Source: Fusobacterium sp. JB019 (GTDB taxonomy: Bacteria; Fusobacteriota; Fusobacteriia; Fusobacteriales; Fusobacteriaceae). Taken from it: 64,000 bases of DNA. The position numbers and the translations under genes are program-made. Of the stretch, positions 4,795 to 15,426 are shown piece after piece. The notes beneath the pieces are model-generated. The model did not search any database, was not told where the DNA came from, and saw nothing but the letters and a program-made list of their open reading frames with translations. The DNA is taken from NCBI GenBank assembly GCA_030673965.1, contig JAUTCN010000010.1, positions 1-64,000 of the forward strand, written 5' to 3'. Within the stretch, counting starts at the first letter, position 1. The number at the start of each line of letters is the position of its first letter.

Positions 4795-5220
4795 TTAATC
4801 ATATTTAACAGAAATATCAAAAGTTCCAGCATAATCTCCAATAACTGTAGTATCTGCAGCATGAAGGACACCTTTTATATTTATTTTAGCTTGACCATTT
4901 TCATCTAAAATTATTTTTTCAGTTTTTTCTGAAGAAAGGTTTAAAATCATAGTTTTTTCTCCATCTCTCATTGGAACTGTTTTAGGAATTTTAACAGTAA
5001 CAGTATTTTGAGATCCAACGGAGCCATTAATATTTACATTTGTAAAAGCAACAGCATCTGATGCAAGAGGAATATCATTAAATTCCATTCCATTATTAAC
5101 AATTGTTAAATTAGCAATAATATTTGCATTAATGTTTAAAGTATTAATAACGGAAGTTTTAGTATCTATATTTTTTGCAAAAATCAAGCTAGAAAATATA
5201 AAAAACATTATTTTTTTCAT
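4795..5220 (-). CDS. Secreted DUF4402-like protein (paralogue 2)
   Basis: A 141-residue exported protein with signal peptide MKKIMFFIFSSLIFA, then the shared pattern INANIIANLTIVNNGMEFND, a middle with a VTVKIP strand, and a closing GDYAGTFDISVKYD. The last motif (G-x-Y-x-G-T-F/V-x-h-S-V-x-Y) is typical of DUF4402, a beta-sandwich domain of bacterial surface proteins related in style to spore-coat-U and pilin domains. First gene of a two-gene leftward unit with the 4333-4776 gene; its own promoter lies at 5263-5291. Function is inferred only from fold-type resemblance. Confidence 0.68.
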   Translation of the reverse strand: MKKIMFFIFSSLIFAKNIDTKTSVINTLNINANIIANLTIVNNGMEFNDIPLASDAVAFTNVNINGSVGSQNTVTVKIPKTVPMRDGEKTMILNLSSEKTEKIILDENGQAKINIKGVLHAADTTVIGDYAGTFDISVKYD

Positions 5221-5262
5221 ATTAAAATTCCTCCTTAAGTAATATAAATATATAATAACATA

Positions 5263-5291
5263 ATTATATATTTATATAGAGAGTTTGTCAA
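5263..5291 (-). promoter_or_regulatory. Promoter for the 5220-4333 gene pair
   Basis: On the minus strand TTGACA (5286-5291) and TATAAT (5263-5268) are separated by exactly 17 bases, a full consensus housekeeping promoter. Confidence 0.8.
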
Positions 5292-5299
5292 TATTAATG

Positions 5300-5338
5300 A
5301 AAATAAAAAGGGTACAAAATATGTACCCTTTTTATTTT
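5300..5338. terminator. Terminator after the 5350-5802 gene
   Basis: A perfect 17-bp stem (arms AAAATAAAAAGGGTACA and its complement, 5300-5316 and 5322-5338) with a five-base loop. It lies just past the leftward gene ending at 5350 and overlaps the upstream edge of the next promoter's region. Confidence 0.85.
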
Positions 5339-5349
5339 CGTTAATATGA

Positions 5350-5802
5350 TTAATTATATTTAACAGAAATAGTCACAGAACCAGTATGTTCCCCAGCTTT
5401 AGTAGTTTCTCCTTCAGCTATATTTCCAGAAATAGTTTGAGTCAAATTACCATCTGCATCTAAAGTTTGAGCCACATCATTATGTTCAGACGTTAAAGTA
5501 ACAGTAGCAGTAGAACCACTAACTCCAACTCTTTCAATGGTAGTAGAGTCAGGAACAGTAACTATAACATTATTTCCTGGAGCTCCTTCAACAAGCATAC
5601 TACCATCAGTTGTAGAATCAGCTTGTTTACCTATGATAATATCTCCAAATTCCATAGATTGTGATTCTTTAATTGACAAAGGAGCAAGAACGTTAGCATT
5701 TATTTTCAAATCTCCTTTTACCTCAGTACCTACTTCAACTTCATTTGCTGCTAGAGTAAGAGCTGACAAGCTTAAAAATATTAATAACAAAGTCTTTTTC
5801 AT
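5350..5802 (-). CDS. Secreted DUF4402-like protein (paralogue 3)
   Basis: A 150-residue exported protein: signal peptide ending ALTLA-A, then INANVLAPLSIKESQSMEFG near residue 33, a Ser/Thr/Val-rich beta body and the C-terminal strand GEHTGSVTISVKYN. It is close to paralogue 4 along its whole length (shared LKINANVLAPLSI, MEFGDI, GNxVTV, RVGV, STATV and AQTLD blocks), so these two are a recent duplication. It is monocistronic: its own promoter at 5906-5934 and terminator at 5300-5338. Predicted surface or pilus-like subunit; this is inference from the domain pattern. Confidence 0.72.
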   Translation of the reverse strand: MKKTLLLIFLSLSALTLAANEVEVGTEVKGDLKINANVLAPLSIKESQSMEFGDIIIGKQADSTTDGSMLVEGAPGNNVIVTVPDSTTIERVGVSGSTATVTLTSEHNDVAQTLDADGNLTQTISGNIAEGETTKAGEHTGSVTISVKYN

Positions 5803-5905
5803 AATTAAACCTCCTGATTTTAAATAAATAGTGAGTAAAAACTATAAAAATATTGTTGTATAATTTTTTGTTTAAAGTAATTTTAACTTAATTCTTATAT
5901 ACTTA

Positions 5906-5934
5906 ATTTTAGTATATAAAAAGATATTTGTCAA
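5906..5934 (-). promoter_or_regulatory. Promoter for the 5350-5802 gene
   Basis: On the minus strand TTGACA (5929-5934) and TAAAAT (5906-5911) are 17 bases apart. The leader (about 100 bases) shows no riboswitch-like structure, unlike that of paralogue 4. Confidence 0.75.
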
Positions 5935-5962
5935 ATCTCAAGAAAAGGAAGTTGTTTTTTTT

Positions 5963-5997
5963 AAAAAAGAAAGAGGTGTATATTATACACCTCTTTC
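5963..5997 (-). terminator. Terminator after the 6033-6482 gene
   Basis: Hairpin with 13-bp arms (5969-5981 and 5985-5997, GAAAGAGGTGTAT and complement). Read leftward, the stem is followed by six T residues from the A run at 5963-5968. Confidence 0.85.
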
Positions 5998-6032
5998 AAG
6001 ATAATCTTTTACTAGTTTCTAAATTTAAAATT

Positions 6033-6482
6033 TTAGTTATACATAACAGAAACAGTAACAGTACCAGTATGGACACCAGTTTTAGTGGTTTGACCTTTAT
6101 CAATAACCCCATTGATAACTTCAGTTAAATGTCCCTCATCATCCAATGTTTGTGCGATACCATTTTTTAAAGAAGTTAAATTAACTGTAGCAGTGGAATT
6201 ATCAACACCAACTCTTGAAATAGTCGTTGTATCAGGAAAAGAAATAGTAACACTGTTTCCAGCAGCTCCTGTAACTGTCATTTTACCAGGTGTAGTAGAA
6301 GTAGCTTTTTCTCCTAAAACAATGTCTCCAAAATCCATAGCCTGTTCTTCTGCAATTGATAAAGGTGCGATAACATTAGCATTAATATTTAAATCTCCAC
6401 TAACATTTTCTCCTACTTTAACTTCTGCTGCCATCGACATAACTGATAATCCTAAAAATAGTCCTAATAATGTTTTTTTCAT
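6033..6482 (-). CDS. Secreted DUF4402-like protein under c-di-GMP riboswitch control (paralogue 4)
   Basis: A 149-residue exported protein: signal peptide MKKTLLGLFLGLSVMSMAA, then LNINANVIAPLSIAEEQAMDFGD, beta-rich body, and C-terminal strand GVHTGTVTVSVMYN. Very similar to paralogue 3. The ATG is preceded by TTAGGAGG. What sets it apart is a 200-base leader containing a c-di-GMP-I aptamer, so its synthesis should answer to the sessile/motile second messenger. That fits a role in surface attachment or matrix. Monocistronic: own promoter and terminator. Confidence 0.75.
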   Translation of the reverse strand: MKKTLLGLFLGLSVMSMAAEVKVGENVSGDLNINANVIAPLSIAEEQAMDFGDIVLGEKATSTTPGKMTVTGAAGNSVTISFPDTTTISRVGVDNSTATVNLTSLKNGIAQTLDDEGHLTEVINGVIDKGQTTKTGVHTGTVTVSVMYN

Positions 6483-13484: not shown

Positions 13485-15122
13485 ATGATTTTAAAAATAA
13501 TAATGTTTTTATTAATAAGTACTTTAAGTTTTTCAGAAATATTATTGACAACAGATAATGATAGTCCAGGTTTAAATAATCCTATAAAAGTTATAGTGGA
13601 ATTTAAAAATATGAAAAGAGAAAATTATTATTTAGATGGAATAAATAATTTTGAAGTTTTGTATAGGAGTAGTAGAAGTTCAACTTCTTGGATTAATGGT
13701 AAAAAGACATCAATAAAATCAGATATATATACAGTGATGCCTTCTAAATTAGGTAAATTTGATTTAAGTGTTTGGGTAAAAGGGCAATTAAAATCTAATA
13801 GATTAAGGATAGAAGTAAAAAAAGATTCTATAAATAATTCCAATAATAATTTAATAAGTAAGAAGGTATCTTTAAATATAAAAAAACTGAATAAGAATTA
13901 TTATTTTGGAGAAAAAATACCTTATTTTGAGAAACTTAATATAAGAACTTCATTAAGAAGTTATGGGTATATAGTTCAACCTAGTTTTGAGGGATTTACG
14001 GTAAAAGATATAACAAAAAGAGATAACAATGGATATCCTTTAACTAAAAGAGTTGTAGAAAATGGGAAAGAAAAAGTAGAAATAAAATTAATAGAAAATA
14101 TTTTAGAGGCAAATTCAACAGGAAAAAAAACAATAAAAGAGGGGAAAATAAAAGTTGAAGAATCAACAGATGATTTTTTTGGAATAGAACCTTCTAAGGC
14201 TATGTTTTTTGGTGGTAAAAAGATTAATGTCAATATTTTACCACTTCCAGAAAAAGGGAAACCTAAAAATTTTCAAATGGTTATTGGTGAACTAGAAGGA
14301 AAATATAAATGGAACAAAATTGATAAAGTTAAGTTAGGAGAAAGCTTTTCTTTAAAAATAAATTTTTCAGGAAATGTTAACTTAAATTATTTAGAAAAAA
14401 TAATTAATGAACAAAATAATAATTTTAATATTTATACAAGTGTTTCAAATGAAAGTGAGAAAATAATAAAAAATAAATATTATGCAACAAAAGATTTTGA
14501 AATTGCATTTATTCCTAAAAAAACAGGAAAATTAAAAATATCTGAAATTAGAATTCCATATTTTGATACGAAAGAAAAGAAGTACAAGGTTTTTAAAATT
14601 CCATCTAAAGAGATAGTGGTAACAGGTACTTATAATGACAAAGATTATGAAAAAAATATGATGTCTTTAAAAGAAAATAATTCTTTAATAAATCATAAAG
14701 ATTCTAATTTTGATAAAGAAATGAAAAAAGAAATTATAATTTCAAGTGTTTTAGAAAAAACTAAAAAGACTAAAGGTACTAAAAAAGATTTATTTTTAAT
14801 TATACTTTTTTTCATAGCTTTAGGAGAAGGAGGATATATATTAAAATTATCAATGGATAAGAAAACTAATAAAAAAGAATATAAAGATTTATATAGAAAA
14901 ATATTAAAAACAAATAACAATAAAGATTTTTATGAACAATATTGTTTATATATGAAAATCAGATATAATTTTAGTCCTAAAGCTCAATTTGAAGATATTT
15001 TAATAAAAAATGGTGGAAATGAAAATTTGATTAATTTAAATAGAAAAATAGATAAAAATATGTTTGAAAATATTGAAATAGATAAAAAAGAAGCTGTATC
15101 TATTTTGAAAAAAAATAAATAA
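13485..15122 (+). CDS. batD: BatD family protein
   Basis: A 545-residue exported membrane protein: signal peptide (MILKIIMFLLISTLSFS), several beta-sandwich modules over about 400 residues, one membrane helix (LFLIILFFIALGEGGYIL near residue 435) and a cytoplasmic Lys-rich tail. This layout and its place after BatA-BatB-BatC identify BatD (oxygen tolerance). Ribosome site GTAGGAG. Only ten bases separate its stop from the UGA-containing gene at 15133, which therefore belongs to the same transcript. Confidence 0.85.
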   Translation: MILKIIMFLLISTLSFSEILLTTDNDSPGLNNPIKVIVEFKNMKRENYYLDGINNFEVLYRSSRSSTSWINGKKTSIKSDIYTVMPSKLGKFDLSVWVKGQLKSNRLRIEVKKDSINNSNNNLISKKVSLNIKKLNKNYYFGEKIPYFEKLNIRTSLRSYGYIVQPSFEGFTVKDITKRDNNGYPLTKRVVENGKEKVEIKLIENILEANSTGKKTIKEGKIKVEESTDDFFGIEPSKAMFFGGKKINVNILPLPEKGKPKNFQMVIGELEGKYKWNKIDKVKLGESFSLKINFSGNVNLNYLEKIINEQNNNFNIYTSVSNESEKIIKNKYYATKDFEIAFIPKKTGKLKISEIRIPYFDTKEKKYKVFKIPSKEIVVTGTYNDKDYEKNMMSLKENNSLINHKDSNFDKEMKKEIIISSVLEKTKKTKGTKKDLFLIILFFIALGEGGYILKLSMDKKTNKKEYKDLYRKILKTNNNKDFYEQYCLYMKIRYNFSPKAQFEDILIKNGGNENLINLNRKIDKNMFENIEIDKKEAVSILKKNK

Positions 15123-15132
15123 GGAGGATTTT

Positions 15133-15426
15133 ATGGAAATAACAGGAAAAGTTTTAGAGTTTATGAAAAAGAAAAAATTTCAAGGAATTATTTTAAGTAA
15201 AGTTGAAGTAAAATTTGGCTGAGTTGGATGTCAAGAAGAAATTCAAGGAGAATTTTTAAAAGAAGAAGAGTTAAAAAAATATTCAGGAGTAGAAAATTTG
15301 ATAGTAGTTGAAAATAAAGGGATAAAAGTGTTTGTTCCTTTAAACATAAAATCAGTAGATAAACTAGTTGTTGATTCTCAATTTAGTTTTTTTGGTGTAA
15401 TGAAATTAAAAATATTCATAAAATAA
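15133..15426 (+). CDS. HesB-like selenoprotein with in-frame UGA (Sec30)
   Basis: A gene hidden by one in-frame TGA (15220-15222). Reading through it gives 97 residues from an ATG with a strong AAGGAGG site (15121-15127) to TAA at 15424. Around the UGA the protein reads VEVKFG-U-VGCQEEIQGEF, where U30 takes the place of the first conserved Cys of HesB/IscA proteins (GG-C-SGF) and forms a Sec-x-x-Cys pair with Cys33. Downstream, LIVVENKGIKVFVPL and DKLVVDSQ match the HesB domain's later strands. The reading frame and codon use stay intact on both sides, which argues against a decayed gene. HesB-like selenoproteins are an established bacterial family. A candidate SECIS lies 22 bases past the UGA. 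Role, if like the family: iron-sulfur or thiol redox handling. Alternative: point nonsense mutation of a Cys or Trp codon. Confidence 0.78.
15237..15257 (+). promoter_or_regulatory. Candidate bacterial SECIS hairpin
   Basis: Eight pairs (15237-15244 with 15250-15257, one G-U) close a five-base loop AAGGA. The loop begins 22 bases after the UGA, in the 16-37 base window seen for bacterial SECIS elements, and has the guanines expected in the apical loop for SelB. The stem is AT-rich, so this is a candidate only. Confidence 0.45.

Follow-up and report, generated by a model that had tools for sequence, protein, structure and literature searches.

A short reading frame on the plus strand of the window, i.e., the whole 64,000-nucleotide stretch of Fusobacterium sp. 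JB019 DNA that was analysed, raises the question of whether a TGA codon in its interior ends the gene or encodes selenocysteine (Sec). The frame runs from an ATG at 15133 to a TAA at 15424–15426 and contains a single in-frame TGA at 15220–15222. Read through, it yields 97 residues with one Sec (U30) in the context ...VKFG-U-VGCQEE..., in which Cys33 (15229–15231) is the second residue of a Sec-x-x-Cys pair. An AGGAGG ribosome-binding site at 15122–15127 is located 5 nt upstream of the ATG and over the stop codon of batD (13485–15122, plus strand, Pfam BatD PF13584), which ends 10 bases before the ATG. Both the otherwise intact frame with its one TGA and the strong ribosome site directly behind batD had been pointed out in the original prediction, which was made from the window's letters, and both were found as described. 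Ordinary gene finders end this gene at the UGA, leaving a 29-residue product. The comparative sequence evidence strongly supports the selenoprotein reading of 15133–15426, and we are highly confident that this is a genuine selenoprotein gene, with a product of predicted IscA/SufA/DsrR fold, which occurs in two Fusobacteriaceae genera and follows batD in only some genomes of the window's genus.

Among the 98 Fusobacteriota genomes searched, the gene was found in all seven genomes of the same genus (the window's own included), with one TGA inside each match, and in 11 of the 12 genomes of a second Fusobacteriaceae genus, the twelfth genome being 71% complete. These relatives share 32–61% identity with the window protein, and the UGA occupies the same alignment column in all 18 family members, window included, always in the context G-U-[AV]-G in the read-through translations. 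The motif is UVGC in the window, UAGC in relatives and UAGP only in L012, so that the second Cys is retained in 17/18 members and the Sec-Cys pair is not universal. After the UGA, dN was lower than dS in each of the eight pairs compared, and the downstream frame is under purifying selection; together with the invariant position of the TGA in all 18 sequences, this argues for more than chance. Two distant homologues with approximately 20% identity (L020 and L023, motif GCSCVG, in genomes G037 and G038 of genus g6) carry a sense Cys at the Sec site. The relatives thus have either UGA (18/18 close members) or Cys (distant g6 homologues) at this position, as the original prediction would have it, and the frame decay that it named as the opposing outcome was not seen. 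Three weak tblastn matches (L021, L022 and L024) were rejected, two being unrelated long ORFs and one containing five stops. In one member, L008 (G006), a second in-frame TGA is present three codons before the TAA (VEAD-TGA-KI) and is probably the true stop. A profile search of genome contigs with alignment A2 returned one locus, on a Fusobacterium sp. MAG contig, and a search of plasmids gave no match.

The sel genes on which the original prediction hinged were all found in the genome, which encodes selD, selA and selB consecutively and possesses a tRNA-Sec with anticodon TCA. The selD gene (L001:234-1259; G000:C8, about 74133–75158) carries its own in-frame UGA near the start (L001:270-272, RCSIGG-U-SSKIGP) and, once translated through it, is recognised as SelD at 391.8 bits. 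Standard ORF calling begins selD 201 bases too late. Based on the sel genes, the tRNA-Sec and the UGA-bearing selD, it is very probable that UGA is decoded as Sec in this organism, which is the usual inference from such machinery. Every genome that encodes the FGUxGC form also has SelB over its cut-off; in genus g6, to which G037 and G038 belong, no selB was found over the curated cut-off.

A putative bacterial SECIS hairpin was located at 15237–15257 of the plus strand, with the core AATTC at 15240–15244, the loop AAGGA at 15245–15249 and the complementary GAATT at 15250–15254. The element AATTC-N5-GAATT begins 17 nt after the UGA in 18/18 sequences, including L005, in which one A is changed to G and a G-U pair is still formed. 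The stem is retained while the loop-side residue varies among Gln, Arg and Leu, which is as expected of a bacterial SECIS. Arg at this place is encoded by CGG or CGA, although no more than 4–6% of the Arg codons here are CGN. A simulation in which the residues were fixed and the codons were drawn from genus usage gave a stem probability of 0.006–0.39 per sequence, against which the stem is present in 17/17 distinct sequences; these come from related lineages and are not independent, so the product of the probabilities is not a p-value. The hairpin is not explained by codon usage. In addition, 95.6% of cells pair in the extended helix, compared with at most 55% in slid controls, and compensatory changes affect the two strands of this helix at two to three of its pairs.

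The bSECIS model describes a stem of 4–16 bp, a loop of 3–9 nt and a distance of 16–37 nt from UGA to loop, together with a G within the first two bases of the loop and an energy of −7.5 kcal/mol or lower (PMC13188914). The window hairpin has this layout (5 bp core, 5 nt loop and 22 nt from UGA to loop) but fails on energy, at −4.8 kcal/mol, and on the loop G, as the first G of AAGGA is the third base. According to the same review, a subset of bSECIS elements fails this model (PMC13188914). RNAfold on the window hairpin alone gave a z of −0.66 at that energy, which is not significant by itself, and the case for the hairpin is a comparative one. We take it as a putative AT-rich, weak SECIS. From established knowledge of Sec insertion, SelB with Sec-tRNA(Sec) would bind this hairpin and insert Sec at the UGA.

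The fold of the product was addressed by structure prediction. For the window protein, AlphaFold gave a confident model (pLDDT 88.8, pTM 0.80), against which IscA, SufA, DsrR and AQ_1857 rank first with Foldseek and VIA-align. The best structural match is IscA 1x0g (Z 8.2, rmsd 2.9, 85 residues aligned). The IscA-fold entries range from Z 8.2 to 4.7 and the next structure follows at Z 2.6, showing that only the IscA fold stands above background; a Z of 8 alone is modest, and it is this gap together with the full-length cover that makes an IscA/SufA/DsrR fold likely for the modelled protein. In an hhalign comparison, U30 aligns with IscA Cys35, weakly (probability 20%, E 0.001). The original prediction had placed the UGA at the first conserved Cys of HesB/IscA proteins, and both this alignment and the predicted fold agree with it: of the three conserved Cys of E. 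coli IscA (C35, C99 and C101), only the first has a counterpart, which is Sec. Pfam and NCBIfam searches with the window protein alone returned nothing of use, and a sequence-profile search of the PDB gave no match.

If the UGA were a true stop followed by decay, or were read as Trp, the relatives should have lost the downstream frame or carry Trp codons, and neither is seen. UGA can act as a stop in the window, as the DUF58 gene was confirmed to end in it, and it terminates only 1 of the 43 ORFs of ≥200 aa there. However, its retention in 18 genomes, the purifying selection after it and the Sec machinery of the genome all argue against both versions, and the distant homologues have Cys rather than Trp at the site, which bears out the earlier claim that TGA is not reassigned to Trp. 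This explanation is thus considered extremely improbable. The original prediction paired the product with the MoxR/Bat oxidative-stress operon, and a further explanation is that the gene works with the MoxR/Bat system in oxidative stress or protein maturation. The position of the gene 10 bases after batD, with the ribosome site over the batD stop, is consistent with this pairing, and so is the order bat operon–selenoprotein gene–glyA, which is the same in the window and in the sister genome G002. In G005, batD alone is directly upstream of the selenoprotein gene. At this locus (L091), the bat operon seems reduced: a thioesterase gene and a diverged batD adjoin the selenoprotein gene, and MoxR to BatC were not found in the stretch examined. 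However, no bat gene was found around the other 15 UGA-form genes, in stretches of about 11–16 kb each, where the neighbours are instead a PF01996 (F420-ligase-like) gene and/or two AMP-binding/acyltransferase genes. The pairing therefore holds as a complete operon in the window and G002, and as batD in G005, but not in the other 15 genomes. Since G002 groups with the window in a supported clade, the arrangement fits a local move of the selenoprotein gene, which we infer to have been in the direction of the bat operon. batD is accordingly an upstream neighbour rather than a conserved context, a joint function with Bat finds no support outside this lineage, and a role with the MoxR/Bat system appears improbable. 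Elsewhere in the window, the minus strand at 4795–6482 carries a tandem array of three paralogues, which contain DUF4402 domains and begin like signal peptides.

The gene product might also truly belong to the established family of HesB-like selenoproteins and work as a selenium version of an Fe–S A-type carrier. The predicted IscA fold, the alignment of Sec with IscA Cys35 and the UxGP of L012 are in line with such a membership, and so is the fact that no canonical IscA/HesB protein (PF01521) was found over cut-off in the 98 Fusobacteriota genomes, a place that this gene might fill. However, the model of the established family, TIGR01911, has no match at the gene or in its own genome and none over cut-off among the 98 genomes of the phylum, and none of the FGUxGC members has the C-terminal Cys-x-Cys. 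The window family is also nearer to another curated family, NF041239 (Moor_selen_rel, CC/Se motif), which 14/19 members match, with a best E of 3.9e-5 and a top member at 23.7 bits, all of them short of the curated 40-bit cut-off; the window protein itself is unmatched. Fusobacteriota CC/Se-like proteins score up to 36.3 bits on the same model, again under the 40-bit cut-off, and hhalign of the window family against them gave a probability of 98.5% (E 3e-15). Membership of the established family is thus unlikely. In the original prediction, the product had been called a HesB-like selenoprotein; the selenoprotein gene and the IscA/HesB-like predicted fold stand, while its UxGC motif and the lack of a TIGR01911 match place it outside that established family.

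The selenoprotein reading leads to a proposal for what the 97-residue product may do. Its Sec would occupy the position of the first cluster-ligand Cys of IscA within the predicted fold, and such a Sec, with a Cys following at the third residue, points to redox or soft-metal chemistry; the same general conclusion has been drawn for UxxC selenoproteins in a review (PMC13188914). Most likely, the pair would cycle between selenol/thiol and selenenylsulfide, or bind a soft metal or a transient Fe–S intermediate, in either case as a redox or metal-handling protein of an anaerobe. A selenol–thiol redox function is somewhat favoured, and metal or Fe–S handling is less likely. The g6 Cys homologues (L106 and L107) lie directly after nrdA and nrdB, which encode class I ribonucleotide reductase, and this neighbourhood hints at a thiol-redox role in that genus.

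Related CC/Se-type genes in the phylum also occur in UGA forms, GGUCxG in genus g14 and KGSKUCP in g3, and in Cys forms, GCCTPY in g8 and PPCSMCNG in g6. The g14 loci (L041, L042, L047, L048, L050, L051 and L052) are small genes with an in-frame UGA in GG-U-C-[SA]-G that score just under the NF041239 cut-off, and the model of L041 has the IscA fold. The g3 loci (L054, L057 and L061) are of similar size with a third UGA motif, KGSK-U-CPV, with weak PF01521 matches for two of the three (5e-4 and 9e-4). It is conceivable, though doubtful at present, that Fusobacteriota use an IscA-fold (seleno)protein clan instead of the canonical PF01521 carrier, with at least three Sec motifs (FGUxGC, GGUCxG and KGSKUCP) and Cys forms, in redox or Fe–S/metal handling, the chemistry having shifted from that of a cluster carrier with three Cys to that of a Sec-Cys pair. 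Across two groups of Fusobacteriaceae, standard gene calling truncates this conserved selenoprotein gene at residue 29, and neither curated model of its nearest families recognises it. One small fold exists naturally with Sec and with Cys, in species that have the Sec trait and in species that lack it, which makes the question open to testing.

An IscA-like fold is already known among selenoproteins; what is new here is the UxGC branch with its own putative SECIS, which the curated models do not pick up. No combination of a UxGC motif with the IscA fold was found among the 119 families and subfamilies of a 2026 inventory of prokaryotic selenoproteins (PMC13188914), and no report of a UxGC IscA-fold branch in Fusobacteriota was found in the open-licence literature. 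The A-type Fe–S carriers IscA, SufA and ErpA (PF01521) and DsrR resemble the window protein in its predicted fold, and they differ from it in that the window protein has neither the C-terminal Cys-x-Cys nor a Pfam match. The HesB-like selenoproteins of TIGR01911 are likewise small IscA-like proteins with Sec in a U-x-G motif; however, their family motif is UxGP (PMC13188914), whereas that of the window branch is UxGC, except in L012. The NF041239 proteins, of about 91–100 residues, carry Sec or Cys at the corresponding place, and the window family and the CC/Se-like proteins both model as the IscA fold. The nearer CC/Se-like members show an adjacent CC/UC type (GGUCxG, GCCTPY), in contrast to the FG-U-x-G-C of the window family. 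With its UxGC motif, the window family forms a divergent branch that is linked to the CC/Se-motif family NF041239 but scores below its cut-off.
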